Shown: positions 16,001 through 45,194 of the stretch, piece after piece
How positions within the stretch are numbered: position 1 is the stretch's first letter
How the letters are laid out: each line of letters starts with the position of its first letter
IMG/VR virus record: IMGVR_UViG_3300030406_003150
Location: 1-64,000 of that record
DNA from: a virus
Strand: one strand, 5' to 3'
DNA: 64,000 nt
Notes under the pieces: generated by a model
The model's input: only the letters and a program-made list of their open reading frames with translations
The model's database searches: none
Told to the model about the DNA's origin: nothing
Program-made: the position numbers and the translations under genes

Positions 16001-17581
16001 GTCTTGGTCTTGGGGAACTATATAGGTAATTGAAATGCCGTCTTGATCCGAAGAACTTTGATGAACGAGAGACACGCTATCGCTAGACTTCAACACTATC
16101 CCAGGGTCTACAATATTAAGAGATGGACTAGTATTATGATTAGCTATCATAGTTCCCTCTACTCTAAAGACGCCTCCACCTGTAGTTCCAGCGTCAACCA
16201 CTATGTTTTTGCCAGGACCTCCCCAGTTGAAACTAAGTTTTATGATCGTGCCAGCGGGGACAATCGTGTCCTTGTCTGCCTGTGTTGATCCGCTTTCTAA
16301 ACCGTCAAATGCAGTCCCTCCAAGAAGATTTATATCTATAGAAGGCGTGGTGGATGTTGACTGAGTTATAACACTTGTGGCCTGACCAGAGGCTATAAAC
16401 TGCTCATCCTTGTCGGTAAGTGGAGAATACTGAACTGTAAGGGTTACGTCAGTAACCACATTGTCGAAACCCTCTTTGTAATTAGAGTACACGACTCTAT
16501 TTCCAGCTATAGCCTGTCCCTTTGCGGTCAGAGGAACGTTGTCATATAATTTGTTTACCGTCTGAGTAGGGACAGTTTCCCCTAGAGTGTTGTTGTAAAA
16601 TCTGTAGGTTTCTGTGGTCGGACTGTAAACCGTAACTGAATTACCAGCTATGTGCCTAGTTACAGTTGTTGTTGGGTCAAACTGATCAACGACAAAGAAT
16701 GATCCAGTATTTCCTATCCTAGCCAACAGCCTAACTTCTTTCAGGTCTGGAAGAGTAGGATCTAGTTGGATGTTTACTAAACATACGTTATCAATAAATG
16801 GGTTGGTTGCAAAACCACTTGTCTCCATGGTGTTCAAAAACAAAACCTTGGAAACAGCTATTTCAGAGTATGGAGAGATCGCAGATTCTTCGCCGTCTTG
16901 AAAGATGTTTTGAGTAGCAAACTGAAAAGTGTCCTCGTTAAAGTTGTTCTGGAGAACGTTTGTATCTGATTCAAAAGAAACAAGAGGGAACTTATTATTT
17001 GCTGCTTTGATAGCAGATATGTGCTCTACAAAATTAGAACCTGTAAACTGATCATAATCGCCAGCTATAGCTCTATCTACGTTAATCTTTCTAGGACCAT
17101 TCTGGTTGTCTGTTACGCTGCTAGATCCACCTCCGTCAGTAAAATAAAGAATGGTGTTTATACTACCGTCTAGGTTTATATTGACAACATCTGCCTTTAT
17201 AAAACCGTTGGGATCAAAGTTTAAATTGCTGCTTTCAAGTATGGTCCTATAGGAGTTAGCCGCTAGGGTTCCGTTAGTAGTAGACTTTGTATTATACTGA
17301 TATATCGTATCGCCAGTTCCAGAAGAGCTAACAGCAAAGTAGTATATAAAACCTCTTTGAGGGTCGGACACCTGACCAATAACCACCTTACTGTTAAAAA
17401 TCTGTGAGTCAGAAACAGCAGTAGCGGCTGTCGTTCCCTTGACATTTTTGATTACACCCTCGGTACCATCTCCATCCTCAGATATGGAGACGTTGAGGGC
17501 GTCCGTCATGGCGCCCTCTTTCAACAAACGCTCATCCTCATCACTGACAAGGAAGCGTGGTATGATCTTATCAATAGGCAT
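13022..17581 (-). CDS. large tail / stabilization-type protein, copy A, 1519 aa
   Basis: The N-terminus (IPRFLVSDEDERLLKEGA, then a DALNVSISEDGDG stretch) resembles podovirus tail-stabilization proteins that sit under the portal. Most of the protein is Ser/Thr-rich beta sequence. Near residues 1140-1300 are IPVNKN, ISEKNMSSFF and a YDPRDSVYYL segment that align with the protein encoded at 62061-64000. The segment after that aligns with the separate gene at 61054-62055. So the single gene here corresponds to two genes in module B. It lies directly downstream of the connector genes, with its start overlapping the previous stop. Host-contact or tail-hub function is inferred from position and composition. 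Confidence 0.7.
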   Translation of the reverse strand: MPIDKIIPRFLVSDEDERLLKEGAMTDALNVSISEDGDGTEGVIKNVKGTTAATAVSDSQIFNSKVVIGQVSDPQRGFIYYFAVSSSGTGDTIYQYNTKSTTNGTLAANSYRTILESSNLNFDPNGFIKADVVNINLDGSINTILYFTDGGGSSSVTDNQNGPRKINVDRAIAGDYDQFTGSNFVEHISAIKAANNKFPLVSFESDTNVLQNNFNEDTFQFATQNIFQDGEESAISPYSEIAVSKVLFLNTMETSGFATNPFIDNVCLVNIQLDPTLPDLKEVRLLARIGNTGSFFVVDQFDPTTTVTRHIAGNSVTVYSPTTETYRFYNNTLGETVPTQTVNKLYDNVPLTAKGQAIAGNRVVYSNYKEGFDNVVTDVTLTVQYSPLTDKDEQFIASGQATSVITQSTSTTPSIDINLLGGTAFDGLESGSTQADKDTIVPAGTIIKLSFNWGGPGKNIVVDAGTTGGGVFRVEGTMIANHNTSPSLNIVDPGIVLKSSDSVSLVHQSSSDQDGISITYIVPQDQDIEDIGAALEELMNGKTIDYLYTITDEQFTVDSGVDSSLSPNFSSWTGLDLDGNVNATFDFGNTTTLTPATGVSGFRINPKLIQVEKSSAVFSVDAISSGFSSYTLSFNMSHEQEADILGAESDTGTLGYTVGSTFVSAQSASANAIQAKPTFKSGSTHSFGIVYYDEFNRSGFVNELGSCYVKTVNERSNSSLSDFGPASVKITFNHNPPSWAERYQIVYAGPDSIDDYVQYTTGPAYVATLELDDGASTPKHRTDVQNKRLYVSLTTLESYREEKNVSRNYSFTKGDRLRLISRRADDNSSTLYPEANDNSQIEFEVVDVVTLSKGTSPTDTTTPIQIVRESGSAADDKYTGSFLVLEASRINGGETNSSGTAVRYTGFDWGDVSGFDLTTGSNTTIGTNAINHWGKETLVEIYTPKKTTSEKVYYEIGHGDRCGARKSGSVNQHGASITVTNGDSWLRPVACKTALHAGSSPGGGVQVLDNDIETDLETATSSTFSAWEARDFYDSYGYQTLFIESNTLSDRFNSRIWSQGRAHVPFKKSKEIVRLNGLTYSDAYVEDVSNLSFSSFNPSLSNFSSLDAKFGAIDYIGNYNEDIVALQENKLALIPVNKNIIEFASGSANVAVSTDVLEQHRYSSGDYGSSGHPEAVIIQDNNVYFVDESRQSVLSLTGGQLVPISEKNMSSFFETFFASGATKYVSGYDPRDSVYYLTRRGSSESTVGYDAARGVWQSRYSFLPDLYSNQNNMLYTAKYKAVTSDDDTIFYKHDNTSAYNTFHGESAQPSIVKVVSKLSPSNVKVFNAISYEGSDGNWEVSGTSDITTNLGQTAGPITSWTEKEGNYYASMPRHNGSSGNYGTNKRDVYVGNFTNPSGDNQTFLVTNARIDRLPFLFDGSLTLFVDATSAEKSISVASFSAGANGFTVVLDSPVVGIAGNCFVRITETQSKTTEDVIRGNFSTIKLTLPSSSSSSSVQELYCINTHVSDSKRHHPLGRE

Positions 17582-25176: not shown

Positions 25177-26534
25177 TTATTGATATTGAGCGATTAACAC
25201 TTCGGCGCTGTTTGAATCTGGTCTTATAATGGCAGCTTCTCCGTTTATCTGAGAGTCTATAAGTAAAGTTGGGCTTGTTATATATGCCCCGCTGGTACTA
25301 TTAGGTGATATATTTCCCTCTCTTGTATACCCAACGTAATAGAGCTTGCCAGATCTTTTTATGATAAGATACTTGACTATGTATTGACCTCGTGCATAGT
25401 AGATGTCTTCAGCATCAGTCCAGGTACTCGTTCTCACAGCGTCTCCAGCCTTATGATCATCCTGGGTTCCGTCTCCACTCATGTAATATTGCCCATCACC
25501 CTGGTGGTAAAAATGACCACTAGAGTTAATCAGGTGTGAAGAGTAGTAGTTAGCGTAAAACTTAGTCCAATCGGTCTGAAGGGTACCGCCAACAGAACCA
25601 GTTTGAACCATGATGGTTTGATCAGAGGTTAAGTTTTGACCTAAAGGTTCGTTGCTGTCACATCTTCCGCAAGCAAAGGCCCTACCGCTTTGAATCGCAG
25701 TTGTGTGGTGATAGCTTGCGTCAACAAAAGAAAAATTATTGTTTGTAGCGCTAACGAGATTCGTAGCATCTACAGCAGTCCACGTAGTTGTGTTTCCTGA
25801 CTGGGTGTTTTGTCCAGTCATTCCGTCGTTGTTTCGCCCAGCAGTGTAAAGCACGTTGCTTGACCCCTTAATAGCAGCAGTATGATTTTGACTGACAGAT
25901 ACGCTAACCCAGTCGCTATCTGTTCCTATTTGAGTCCAATTACCGTAAGACGAAGAGGTTGAACCATTTCCAAACTTTCCGTAACTGTTGTTGCCAATAC
26001 CATAAAGCTTTCCAGAGTTTATAGCTAGTGCAGTAGAAGAACAGGCGGATACGTCTGTCCATCCCGTATCAGAGTCGCCAACCCCTGTAAGCTGAGTAAA
26101 GGTCCTCCGCGAGACACTCCCTGAGCCGCCCCAATAGCTGTTGGATGTAGCCATAATCCACATCTTTCCGTCTGTATCTATAATAAAAATTGCATACCCT
26201 CCAGCCGTCATTTTTGATACGGTTGGGGTAAATGGAGTAGCAGCTCTAGCGTGGATACCATTGACGTCTGAAGAGTAGTTTCTAACTATATCTGTCCCCA
26301 GGGTAAACCCAGTAACATCGTCGCCGCCGCTGTGCTTTCCGCTGGAGGCTGATTCGCTGTAGGGTTGCCTGTATGCCCCTCCCATCTGTATCAATCCAGA
26401 CGTTGGCACTGTGGTGGTGTACGTTCCCGTCCCAGCCACAGGGTCAAAAGCTCCACCAGAGGCTGGAATATCCTGTCCGTTTATAGATGCAATGTTAGCC
26501 ATGTCTATACCGTTTTTCTGATCTATGTCTGGCA

Positions 26535-26535
<1 letters not shown>
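25177..26535 (-). CDS. tail fibre protein with RCC1-like beta-propeller repeats, 452 aa
   Basis: An N-terminal segment (MANIASINGQDIPASGG) typical of Bacteroidota phage fibre proteins precedes several RCC1-type repeats. Each has the pattern W..V....H..A....G.LY..G.N..G..G, for example KLYGIGNNSYGKFGNG and SQNHTAAIKGSSNVLYTAGR (about residues 110-330). RCC1 repeats fold into a seven-bladed propeller, which suits carbohydrate or protein recognition. The start codon overlaps the stop of the collagen-like fibre gene. It is therefore the likely distal, receptor-recognising part of the fibre; the receptor cannot be deduced. Confidence 0.75.
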
Positions 26536-39209: not shown

Positions 39210-39809
39210 ATGGTAAGTTTCAGCACACTACCGCTCGCTACAGTCACACGCCACACCAAGGCGTGGGCTGGGCGGGCATCCGATCACGAGCGCGAGGAAG
39301 GCTTGCGCTGGTACAAGGAAGCGATGGAATTCGCTGAATACCTGTCGATTACGTTCAACATCTCAAAGGTCGTAGCTGCGGGCGTGATAAGCGCCCTGAG
39401 CCCGAACAACAAGTGGGAGCGCAACAAAATCGATGCATTCAACCTGATTCAGGCATACGTAGACGGTCGCACGATGGATGATGTGAGCGTGTGTACGTAC
39501 ACGAACAACAAGCGCCGCGCGTGGGGCATCCTGAGCGGTGACGTGGAGATGCTACGCAAGGCACGCAAGACCCACGCATTTGCGCTGAATGTGGGTGCGA
39601 TGGATGAATCTGTCGTTACCATTGACAAGTGGATGCTCCGTGCGTTTGTGACTACGTCGCTCAAGCCCAAGGACGTGCCTACTACGTGTACTCCCGTGCA
39701 GTACGACCGTCTGAGCGCTCACTTCTGCAAGGTGGCGCGTGCTATGGGGTACAAGCCCTACGAGTTGCAGGCTATCATATGGGTCACCATTCGTAATCGA
39801 TGGCTCTGA
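39210..39809 (+). CDS. HhH-GPD glycosylase-like phage protein, 199 aa
   Basis: The segments ISALSPNNKWERNKIDAF, THAFALNVG, VVTIDKWMLRAF and ELQAIIWVTIRNRW follow the layout of a phage protein family (of the DUF7178 type, from memory) that looks like a helix-hairpin-helix DNA glycosylase. The VTIDKW aspartate lies where the catalytic Asp of HhH-GPD enzymes sits. It could excise or read modified bases early in infection. It is co-transcribed with the histone-like gene, 12 bases downstream. Enzyme activity is not proven by the sequence. Confidence 0.55.
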   Translation: MVSFSTLPLATVTRHTKAWAGRASDHEREEGLRWYKEAMEFAEYLSITFNISKVVAAGVISALSPNNKWERNKIDAFNLIQAYVDGRTMDDVSVCTYTNNKRRAWGILSGDVEMLRKARKTHAFALNVGAMDESVVTIDKWMLRAFVTTSLKPKDVPTTCTPVQYDRLSAHFCKVARAMGYKPYELQAIIWVTIRNRWL

Positions 39810-39843
39810 AACCCCAGTAAATGCTGGCAAATCGAAAATAAAT

Positions 39844-39874
39844 TTGACAACGCTGTTTGGATTCCTTATCTTTG
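39844..39874 (+). promoter_or_regulatory. early promoter B, TTGAC-N18-TATCTTTG
   Basis: TTGAC at 39844-39848, 18 bases, TATCTTTG at 39867-39874; 29 bases before the ATG at 39904. Shares the core ACAACG-n-TGTTTG with early promoter C. Confidence 0.85.
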
Positions 39875-39884
39875 CAGTCCACGA

Positions 39885-39903: not shown

Positions 39904-40143
39904 ATGGAAAACGCACCACGCTACTGCTCAATCACCAACGAACCTATGTGGGAAGGTTGGTACTTCGAAGGGATTGGGTTCTTCTACGTCAAGTACGAGA
40001 AGGATGCGCTCCGCATCTGCCAAGAACACGACTACGCCACGCTGGATGAGGCGTTCGATGACGAGTTCATGTACTGGACTGACTGGCACGACATCCCCAA
40101 GGACGAGTGGGACTTACCCACGAACCTACCCAAGGTACACTGA
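39904..40143 (+). CDS. small acidic early protein, 79 aa
   Basis: Start at the ATG at 39904 (MENAPRYCSITNEPMWEGW), behind promoter B and the conserved leader; the longer frame upstream is non-coding. It is acidic and aromatic-rich (EFMYWTDWHDIPKDEWDLP) with a Cys near the N-terminus. Small acidic early proteins of phages often inhibit host enzymes, but nothing specific is recognised. Its stop codon TGA (40141-40143) is part of the CTGATGA catalytic core of the first hammerhead ribozyme, so RNA cleavage would leave its mRNA with a 34-base 3' tail. Confidence 0.65.
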   Translation: MENAPRYCSITNEPMWEGWYFEGIGFFYVKYEKDALRICQEHDYATLDEAFDDEFMYWTDWHDIPKDEWDLPTNLPKVH

Positions 40144-40183
40144 TGAGTCCTGAATGGACGAAACGCTGCGAAGCGTCTGTATC
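40134..40183 (+). ncRNA. hammerhead ribozyme 1 (stem I open)
   Basis: All invariant elements are present: CTGATGA core (40140-40146), stem II GTCC/GGAC with a TGAAT loop, GAAA (40160-40163), stem III CGCT/AGCG closed by a GCGA tetraloop, U16.1 (40176) and H17 = C (40177), and stem I GGTACA/TGTATC (six pairs, one G-U). Predicted cleavage lies between 40177 and 40178, giving a downstream mRNA with a 24-nt leader before the ATG at 40202. It overlaps the stop codon of the upstream gene. Confidence 0.93.
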
Positions 40184-40184
40184 A

Positions 40185-40201
40185 ATCAAAATCTCTCACA
40201 C
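40185..40201 (+). promoter_or_regulatory. conserved early leader after ribozyme 1
   Basis: ATCAAAATCTCTCACAC before the ATG at 40202, beginning eight bases after the predicted cleavage site. Confidence 0.65.
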
Positions 40202-40453
40202 ATGAGCAAATACGAAAACGGCTACCTGCCTAAGATTGCCTACCACATGTTCAAGGGCAATCAAGACCGAGTTGATTACTTCGTTCATCGACAACTGACC
40301 ACGTACGGGCCAATCGAAGACCGCCAGCGCTGGTGGGTAATCGAGGAAGTCCACCGACTCCGAGAACAACAAGCGAAGCCTAAGACCTTCGAAGATGCAT
40401 TGGCACTCTGCCACAACAAAGACGAGGTGCTGGCTCAACTCAAAAACCTCTAA
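40202..40453 (+). CDS. small early protein between two hammerheads, 83 aa
   Basis: Start at the ATG at 40202 (MSKYENGYLPKIAYHMFKG). A small, mostly helical, Trp/His/Arg-containing protein (EDRQRWWVIEEVHRLREQQA) with no recognised family. It is the only ORF in the 320-nt RNA that the two ribozymes would release (40178-40497). Its last codons (KNL-stop) run directly into stem I of the second ribozyme. Confidence 0.65.
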   Translation: MSKYENGYLPKIAYHMFKGNQDRVDYFVHRQLTTYGPIEDRQRWWVIEEVHRLREQQAKPKTFEDALALCHNKDEVLAQLKNL

Positions 40454-40503
40454 GGCACACTGACGAGGCTTGAATAGCCGAAACGCCGCGAGGCGTATGT
40501 GTC
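40454..40503 (+). ncRNA. hammerhead ribozyme 2 (stem I open)
   Basis: Same 50-nt design as ribozyme 1: core CTGACGA (40460-40466; position 7 is free to vary), stem II GGCT/AGCC with the same TGAAT loop, GAAA (40480-40483), stem III CGCC/GGCG with the same GCGA loop, U16.1 (40496), H17 = A (40497), stem I GGCACA/TGTGTC. Compared with ribozyme 1 there are compensatory changes in all three stems. Predicted cleavage after 40497, leaving a 25-nt leader before the ATG at 40523. Confidence 0.93.
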
Positions 40504-40504
40504 A

Positions 40505-40522
40505 AATCAAAATCATTACACT
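40505..40522 (+). promoter_or_regulatory. conserved early leader after ribozyme 2
   Basis: AATCAAAATCATTACACT before the ATG at 40523, the third element of the same ribozyme-leader-ATG arrangement. Confidence 0.6.
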
Positions 40523-43764: not shown

Positions 43765-44160
43765 ATGTACAAAATCAGATTCCACCTCGCCAAAGGCGAA
43801 AACTTCATGAAGTGGCAAATCAAAGCGCCAGGCTTAGTTCGATACGTAGACCCCGCTGAATTTCAGATAGCTATGTTCAATGCCAAGCTCAAGGTTCAAA
43901 CAGGCACGTCAAAAAAGATTCACGAAGGTGCATGCAAAACTGTGTGTGCTTGGGTTCAATGTGAAGAGTTCCAGATTACAAGGAACGACAAAATCAAACC
44001 CAACGTAAATGACTTCTACGTCAGGTTCAACCCACGCCGTAATCCTGAATGGGTAGACATGCACGACAACATCATGAGCAACGAGGAGTACAGCTTGCTG
44101 GTAAGCCAAGATCGTAGCCTGTTTGTAGTGACCGAGAACCACCAATGCGACGAAGAATGA
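43765..44160 (+). CDS. hypothetical early protein, 131 aa
   Basis: Preceded by ACTCAAAATCTC immediately before the ATG, a shortened early leader. Basic alpha/beta (MYKIRFHLAKGENFMKWQIK, DKIKPNVNDFYVRFNPRRNP), Cys-containing around residue 57-67. No family recognised. Its stop overlaps the start of the GIY-YIG gene. Confidence 0.6.
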   Translation: MYKIRFHLAKGENFMKWQIKAPGLVRYVDPAEFQIAMFNAKLKVQTGTSKKIHEGACKTVCAWVQCEEFQITRNDKIKPNVNDFYVRFNPRRNPEWVDMHDNIMSNEEYSLLVSQDRSLFVVTENHQCDEE

Positions 44161-45194
44161 CATACGAAGAAATCATAGAGCAAGAGCCGCAACCGATAGT
44201 GTACTCCATTGACTTCCCAAACGGGATGTTCTATGTGGGTCGGACGGTGGATGTATCGAGGCGGGCAAAACGTCACTTCCATGAGTCGATGCGGTCCGCA
44301 CACAGCAACACAGCTATGGAGCGATGCTTCAAGAAGTATAAGTTTCAAGAAACATGGGGGGTGATAAAGACATTTGCTACTGCGAAGGAAGCTGTAGATT
44401 TCGAGGCGATGTACATCGAAGAGTTCTGGGATGACCCTTTGTTCCTGAATCAGAAGCGCGGTGACAAGTTTACCGCGTTGGAAAACGAGCGACAACACAG
44501 CAAGCTGGCGTACTACATGAACGCATACACAAAGATGATGTGGCGATCAGAGAAGAAGGGTGAATTGCGCCATCAGATGGGGCAAAAGGGATACCAGCCG
44601 CTACCTTCTGGTATTGGAGGTAAGTGCCACAGGGTATTGGCTTATGGTTCTACCCCAGAGGAGTGTGAAGCAGATGCAGAACGAATATTACGGAGGGATT
44701 TTGTTCAGATATGCAACAAGATTGACCCCCCTTGGAAAGAAAAAGCTAATCAAAAGCTAAACGCCAAGCGAAAAGAGGAACGCAGAATAGCAAAGCTAAA
44801 GAAGTCATATGTGGTTAAGGACCTGAAGACAGGACGTGTTTCGATTGCTAAATGGTGGTGTAGCAAGAAAGGACTTACTCCTGGTCAGAAAAGAGTGTTA
44901 AATGAAGGTGTAAGACCATGGTCTCTGCACAACGTGAGAAGGTATGGAGAGCCTTGGGCGGAATTCGTTCCTGAGAAAACTCAATCGTGGGCAAATCACA
45001 ACAAACCCAAGCCCATCGTAGGGGTACACAAGAGTGGAAAGATAGGCGAGTGGGCTAGCGTGGGTGCATTCGCAAGAGAGGAACTAAATGCTAAAACAAG
45101 ATCAAGAAAAAAATGCTTACGGGCACAAGCAATAATATCAATCGAAAGAAATGGCACATGCCATGGGTGGGAACTAAAATACAAGAAACAATGA
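44157..45194 (+). CDS. GIY-YIG homing endonuclease, 345 aa
   Basis: The catalytic module occupies residues about 14-100: VYSIDFPNGMFYVGRTVDVS is a variant of GIY-YIG (VYS ... YVG), with the conserved Arg in RRAKRHF and a Glu in EAMYIEEFW. The remaining 240 residues are Lys-rich with repeats of the NUMOD type (VVKDLKTGRVSIAKWWCSKK, IVGVHKSGKIGEWASVGAFA), which bind DNA. It is a selfish element that cuts a specific site. It is inserted neatly between coupled small genes, keeping ATGA overlaps on both sides. Confidence 0.85.
   Translation: MTYEEIIEQEPQPIVYSIDFPNGMFYVGRTVDVSRRAKRHFHESMRSAHSNTAMERCFKKYKFQETWGVIKTFATAKEAVDFEAMYIEEFWDDPLFLNQKRGDKFTALENERQHSKLAYYMNAYTKMMWRSEKKGELRHQMGQKGYQPLPSGIGGKCHRVLAYGSTPEECEADAERILRRDFVQICNKIDPPWKEKANQKLNAKRKEERRIAKLKKSYVVKDLKTGRVSIAKWWCSKKGLTPGQKRVLNEGVRPWSLHNVRRYGEPWAEFVPEKTQSWANHNKPKPIVGVHKSGKIGEWASVGAFAREELNAKTRSRKKCLRAQAIISIERNGTCHGWELKYKKQ

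Follow-up and report, generated by a model that had tools for sequence, protein, structure and literature searches.

Type I Hammerhead Ribozymes Between Small Phage Genes as Likely Intercistronic Processing Sites

Introduction

Several hammerhead ribozymes have been found to flank single prophage genes of variable identity, and processing into single-gene mRNAs was already proposed for them by Perreault et al. in 2011 (PMC3088659), so the general idea is not new. A triple hammerhead set from A. tumefaciens was shown to cleave in vitro and in E. coli, and the HHphage element of haloviruses HF1/HF2 lies 13 nt before a start codon (PMC3088659). What hammerheads are for in prokaryotes and phages is acknowledged to be unresolved (PMC6155905). 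Here, we describe two hammerhead elements in a window of 64,000 nucleotides, by which we mean the whole stretch of DNA that was analysed (positions 1 to 64,000 of IMG/VR record IMGVR_UViG_3300030406_003150). Other loci and contigs are designated by L numbers.

Results and Discussion

Genomic Context of the Two Elements

The viral contig contains 78,121 bases, and the two elements sit in a region of small genes. The portal protein shares about 29-31% identity with its counterparts in Flavobacterium phages and in an environmental podovirus, and the matches are mostly to phages of Flavobacterium or Cellulophaga. The host is probably a Bacteroidota-type bacterium, as inferred from sequence alone. 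As shown in Table 1, a promoter is followed by gene A, ribozyme 1, gene B, ribozyme 2 and gene C, so that both ribozymes are internal to one likely transcript. Homologs of up1 stand before the same region in seven related loci.

Table 1. Features around the two hammerhead elements, numbered by position in the window.
Feature	Position	Strand	Remarks
up1 (DUF7178), conserved gene ahead of the cassette region, orthology anchor	39210..39809	+	Pfam PF23802, 2.1e-35
Promoter TTTG-N20-TATCTTTG, Bacteroidota-type	39843..39874	+	Consensus match
Gene A, small, 79 aa	39904..40143	+	Stop TGA 40141-40143 inside ribozyme 1 core; homologs in L237, L238, L252, L253
Ribozyme 1, type I hammerhead	40134..40183	+	Predicted cut 40177/40178; junction also in L237, L238, L253
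Leader after cut 1, 24 nt, A-rich	40178..40201	+	First 6 nt are the 3' strand of stem I
Gene B, small, 83 aa	40202..40453	+	Between both ribozymes; stop TAA adjoins ribozyme 2; homologs in L236-L239, L053
Ribozyme 2, type I hammerhead	40454..40503	+	Predicted cut 40497/40498; orthologous element in L237-L239
Leader after cut 2, 25 nt	40498..40522	+	First 6 nt are the 3' strand of stem I
Gene C, small, 99 aa	40523..40822	+	Directly 3' of ribozyme 2; promoter-preceded in related phages

The promoter is the sole plus-strand match to the promoter consensus in the window. The distance from the -7 box to the start site is 4-5 nt in F. johnsoniae (PMC6847099), and from this spacing transcription is expected to start at about 39879-39880, which would give gene A a promoter-made leader that is also 24-25 nt long. 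Gene B had no PHROG or Pfam match in profile searches. Most gene borders in this phage carry no ribozyme. Elsewhere in the window, a GIY-YIG homing-endonuclease-like gene was found in the early region (44145-45194), and an RCC1-like repeat protein (PHROG 'regulator of chromosome condensation') is encoded among the structural genes (25180-26535).

Sequence, Fold and Model Scores of the Two Elements

Element 1 consists of stem I GGTACA/TGTATC, the core CTGATGA, stem II GTCC-TGAAT-GGAC, GAAA, stem III CGCT-GCGA-AGCG and U-C at the cleavage site. The corresponding parts of element 2 are GGCACA/TGTGTC, CTGACGA, GGCT-TGAAT-AGCC, GAAA, CGCC-GCGA-GGCG and U-A, respectively. Both meet the hammerhead sequence criteria (C3UGANGA9, G12AA14, A15.1-U16.1 and H17) and the type I layout, with the ends in helix I and loops closing helices II and III. 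The original prediction, made without database searches, had placed two complete hammerheads at 40134-40183 and 40454-40503; these coordinates and the letters held exactly, as did the claims of a complete core, three helices, identical loops TGAAT and GCGA, an open stem I (type I) and the flanking of one small gene, which is gene B.

The minimum-energy fold of each 50-nt element was the hammerhead, at -15.7 and -17.8 kcal/mol for elements 1 and 2, respectively, with z of about -2. When flanks of about 15 nt were included, the hammerhead remained the minimum-energy fold of element 2, but that of element 1 turned into another structure. Both elements are type I hammerhead ribozymes in sequence and structure; their self-cleavage is inferred, and there are no cleavage data.

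A covariance model was built from 18 elements of other phages, with the window left out. Over the 78-kb record it gave 77.1 and 76.3 bits (E of about 1e-17) for the two elements, and the third-best match in this record reached only 10.9 bits. The original prediction had named a search with the Rfam hammerhead models as a check. In Rfam, element 1 scored 23.6 bits with RF00163 (Hammerhead_1), below the gathering cut-off of 34, and 16.9 bits with RF03152 (RAGATH-1), whose gathering cut-off is 56.3, so that neither criterion was met; no RF00163 match was listed for element 2. At the gathering cut-off, the search of the whole window returned tRNAs only. This outcome reflects the Rfam model and not the element. 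Across nine loci with about 30 covariance-model matches, only 1 gathering hit was obtained, and Rfam fails to reach most of this abundant phage ribozyme family. The family shares with RF00163 the common core, GAAA, A15.1-U16.1, three helices and the open stem I, but its stem I has just 6 bp and is flanked on both sides by a near-invariant unpaired A, its stem III is short and its loop II is mostly TGAAT. The hammerhead core is also common to RAGATH-1, and relatives match that model weakly, but RAGATH-1 has an additional upstream hairpin.

Occurrence in Other Phages

A search among related phages, also named in the original prediction, was run and uncovered a large family with compensatory changes. 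The first search pattern fixed only the core and loop II (TGAAT) and was found on 66 viral contigs, compared with 15 for the reversed pattern; pairing of stem II, which this pattern did not demand, was complete in nearly all of the 66. The second pattern imposed GGTTAA in helix I and returned at least 120 stretches. Since TGAAT and GGTTAA were imposed by the first and second pattern, respectively, their frequencies are biased. The covariance model matched 114 and 115 times in the two pattern-search sets, and 191 distinct well-formed elements were obtained on about 135 viral contigs.

Six cultured phages carry one element each: Flavobacterium phages elemoA, elemoC and elemoE, Methylophilales phage MEP301, Pelagibacter phage HTVC131P and Agrobacterium phage OLIVR1. 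Between elemoA and elemoC, helix II differs by compensatory changes (GACT/AGTC and GGTT/AACC, respectively). In elemoA, the ribozyme occupies 16692-16756 of MT497065.1, and its predicted cut would leave 28 nt ahead of the QMP84661.1 start. A hypothetical protein (QMP84662.1) is annotated antisense across this ribozyme (MT497065.1, 16681-16788) and is probably no gene. The human-faecal phage H20 (MT836459) was rejected as a carrier, as the covariance model gave no match. Bacterial genomes were likewise rejected as the main home, with one pattern match in a 257-Gb collection of 84,980 cellular genomes. That sole match (L103, JAKVAX010000027.1, 4953-4996) lies on a Flavobacteriales MAG contig that is possibly viral.

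Fifty whole records together contained 105 copies; the number per record ranged from one to seven, and about half of the records had a single ribozyme. This bears on a retrozyme-like reading, in which the gene B RNA would be excised by the two ribozymes and circularised. Two cuts flank exactly one gene, which favors this reading, as do the 5'-OH and 2',3'-cyclic phosphate ends that hammerhead cleavage leaves. Against it stand the many records with one ribozyme and the absence of RtcB and RNA_ligase domains from this phage and 27 other records, nearly all of them hammerhead-bearing, although this negative result covers two families in phage records and does not exclude host ligases. Circular products were also looked for with other phage hammerheads and none were detected (PMC3088659). 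We regard circularisation as very unlikely.

Covariation and Conserved Bases

Elements 1 and 2 differ at 10 positions, which comprise four full pair changes (8 nt) and the free positions N7 and H17. The claim that the helices were kept by compensatory change held and is supported by alignments of relatives and by the orthologous B/C junction. The further claim that this was evidence inside a single sequence held only in part, since four pair changes are few and the strong evidence comes from relatives. In the first 20 gapless rows, whose selection was based on pairing, 100% of 300 pair cells were standard pairs and two-sided changes were found in 11 of 15 pairs. In 99 distinct rows, standard pairs made up 99.6% of pair cells, with two-sided changes in 393 cells compared with 87 in shuffles, and slid structures lowered the pairing to 24-40%. 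The 99-row alignment leans towards the structure because it was fitted to the covariance model. Orthologous junctions are free of both row-selection and model-fitting bias: at the B/C junction, element 2 and its counterparts in L237-L239 differ by two compensatory changes in stem II and one in stem III, and the fixed core bases are identical throughout.

The A residues flanking helix I are near-invariant, at 187 and 185 of 191 on the two sides; the first search pattern did not demand either, and the second demanded the 5' one. A stem I longer than 6 bp was rejected, as pairing at positions 2-6 beyond the stem was at or below chance. By analogy with the peripheral contacts of other type I hammerheads, we infer that the flanking A residues may contact loop II; such a contact has not been shown.

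The elements could in principle be chance motifs or dead relics. The bare CTGANGA...GAAA motif occurs 8 times in the window with 5.3 expected, which is no excess over chance and in keeping with this explanation. However, the E value from an independent model, the outnumbering of the reversed pattern with stem II paired nearly throughout, the covariation and the fixed position described below all but exclude it.

Position Relative to Stop and Start Codons

Position statistics were taken from 200 elements with unique contexts. An ATG reading frame begins no more than 100 nt downstream in 175 of the 200, and the distance from cut to ATG has a median of 23 nt, a mode of 23 nt and an interquartile range of 20-27. 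This distance was 15-33 nt for 74.5% of elements and for 9.9% of random same-strand sites. The antisense control gave 38 of 200 and no such spacing pattern. HTVC131P had no clear open reading frame at the usual distance from its element. On the other side, among 169 elements with a recognisable upstream gene, the stop codon of 132 is located at -3, -2, +3, +7 or +17 from helix I, that is, right before helix I, in GGTTAA, in CTGA or in TGAAT. Since these stops either touch stem I or share bases with stem I, the core or loop II, the cut falls between stop and start, and an element can terminate a gene whichever of the three frames it uses. The 165 downstream proteins fell into 143 clusters, which rules out dependence on one downstream gene family and indicates that the ribozyme serves gene borders, not one gene.

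Leaders after the cut are G-poor and 54% A, with peaks of A at -12 (81%) and -3 (69%). In F. johnsoniae, positive determinants of translation are located at -3, -6, -12 and -13 (PMC6847099), and the modal 5' UTR length in B. thetaiotaomicron is 23 nt (PMC7366714), equal to the mode from cut to ATG. Shine-Dalgarno-like motifs were present in 22 of 191 leaders, about a tenth, so some hosts probably do not belong to Bacteroidota; the phages of Agrobacterium, Pelagibacter and Methylophilales are examples. The predicted accessibility of the start codon after cutting showed a small gain, the mean unpaired probability rising from 0.66 to 0.71 and being higher in 60 of 80 cases.

Hairpins were observed in some leaders. 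Those of L149 are about 40 nt long and carry a conserved hairpin, GTGC-AGNCTATAACAG-GCAC, right before the ATG, whether a ribozyme is present or not; they follow its ribozymes and two ribozyme-free borders (reverse strand 2010 and 4417), and no Rfam family covers this hairpin at E<=1. In L065 and L153, one and the same hairpin (AGTCTGTTCNAACAGACT and AGTCCG...CGGACT, respectively) recurs within the genome, both in several ribozymes, where it forms stem III, and behind promoters, where it is a 5' UTR hairpin, for example at reverse strand 5197, 6540, 7665 and 8662 in L065. It may possibly be a common protein-binding or stability element.

Exchange Between Promoters and Ribozymes at One Locus

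After the DUF7178 gene, the order promoter-A-ribozyme-B-ribozyme-C was found in the window, L237 and L238, the order promoter-B-ribozyme-C in L239, and a promoter region directly followed by C in L251, L244 and L247. In the window, L237 and L238, ribozyme 1 stands in front of gene B; in L239, its place is taken by TTTG-N20-TATATTTG. The leaders are almost identical, and AATCAAAATCTCAATCAC forms the end of the leader in L237/L238 (ribozyme 1) as well as in L239 (promoter). Gene C follows ribozyme 2 in four phages and a promoter in L251, again with little difference in the leader. In L053, a promoter at gene B and a ribozyme at an unrelated gene are both followed by the leader CAAAATCAAAATCTCAATTACATG. 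The consensus is matched by the promoters of L237, L239 and L251, and L244 and L247 have only weak -7 boxes. These results show that, at this one locus, a ribozyme and a promoter can stand in for each other in front of one gene.

In the up1 tree, the three promoter-C phages split from the five ribozyme-bearing ones with full support; as the tree was midpoint-rooted, it cannot resolve whether promoter or ribozyme was the ancestral state. Within contigs generally, promoter and ribozyme leaders showed a slight excess of similarity (0.56, with a background of 0.49). The claim of exchange therefore rests on the orthologous locus, and its evidence is limited to one locus family. The fixed gene borders, the large family and the alternation with promoters had not been seen in the original prediction.

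Two other explanations bear on these borders. The upstream 3' end could be the main selected effect, with the cut replacing a terminator and the ribozyme body with its cyclic phosphate blocking 3' exonucleases. The type I layout, which keeps stems II and III on the upstream RNA, and the stop codons in or beside the element support this reading. However, the start codon spacing is equally tight, the leader is common to promoter-driven genes, and L239, which lacks A and ribozyme 1, has a promoter joined to the B leader, so that it is the 5' side that was kept. We consider the 3'-end reading unlikely. The elements could also be mainly a DNA-level module, that is, similar border sequences where phages recombine, with cleavage secondary. 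The same border does join different partners (A/B, and A/other in L253; B/C, and B/other in L053 and L236), and copies within a genome share ribozyme (0.76) and leader (0.69, compared with 0.51 between genomes) but not the flanking coding DNA. Compensatory changes, a fixed core and variable stems are unexpected for a plain homology tract, and we hold this explanation to be very unlikely, although it and the processing reading are not mutually exclusive.

Proposed Function

We propose that the elements are intercistronic processing sites, through which every gene of a polycistronic transcript obtains a 5' end like that made by a promoter. This reading is likely, with a probability of roughly 0.72; cleavage in cells, effects on RNA stability and a benefit to translation are inferred. 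RNA from the promoter upstream of gene A would run across genes A, B and C, and each ribozyme would fold during synthesis and cut 3' of the stop codon of the upstream gene. The upstream mRNA would retain its stop and carry the folded ribozyme body at its 3' end, terminated by a 2',3'-cyclic phosphate. The mRNA of the next gene would start with a 5'-OH and an A-rich leader of 24-25 nt, like a 5' end from the phage's own promoter. Single-gene mRNAs would result, the main benefit being the promoter-like front end for the downstream gene. Genes could then come and go between promoter and operon, and each gene would still have such a front end. Where the stop codon lies within the ribozyme, part of the element would be hidden by a ribosome that terminates there, so that cutting may compete with upstream translation. 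The flanked minimum-energy fold of element 1 counts against this function, and it is possible that co-transcriptional folding differs. The many ribozyme-free gene borders of this phage, the small gain in start codon accessibility, the limitation of promoter exchange to one locus family and the lack of a clear reading frame in HTVC131P also count against it.

In a bolder reading, hammerheads would be natural insulators that replace internal promoters, and cassettes of leader, gene and ribozyme would be gained and lost at the promoter-proximal end. The terminal ribozyme of a new gene would then restore a promoter-like leader of promoter length to the displaced gene, and the array would be indifferent to gene order in hosts that initiate without Shine-Dalgarno sequences. 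Taken jointly, these claims fall just short of what we would be inclined to accept.

The family offers a sharp, testable answer to the question of purpose, namely fixed-distance cuts between stop and start and replacement of ribozyme and promoter at the same gene. Since Elemovirus phages cultured on Flavobacterium strain BAL314 carry the element, this answer can be tested in infected cells.

Comparison with Known Systems

The clusters of Perreault et al. have in common with this family several hammerheads around single genes and the idea of processing. In contrast, neither a fixed stop/start geometry nor promoter exchange is found there, in the bearing sections of PMC3088659, and here one compact family is present that is mostly invisible to Rfam; overlap with the sequence set of that study is not excluded. 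Judged by the literature searched, what appears new is that stop codon, cut and start codon have a fixed geometry, that the leader length agrees with that of Bacteroidota, that ribozymes exchange with promoters at the same gene, and that the family mostly missed by Rfam is so large. RiboJ-type insulators (PMC7536230) likewise use a hammerhead cut to normalise the 5' UTR whatever lies upstream. However, RiboJ is man-made and placed between promoter and gene, whereas the phage elements are natural and lie between genes of one transcript. If the proposed function is true, they would be nature's equivalent of the engineered ribozyme insulators of synthetic biology.
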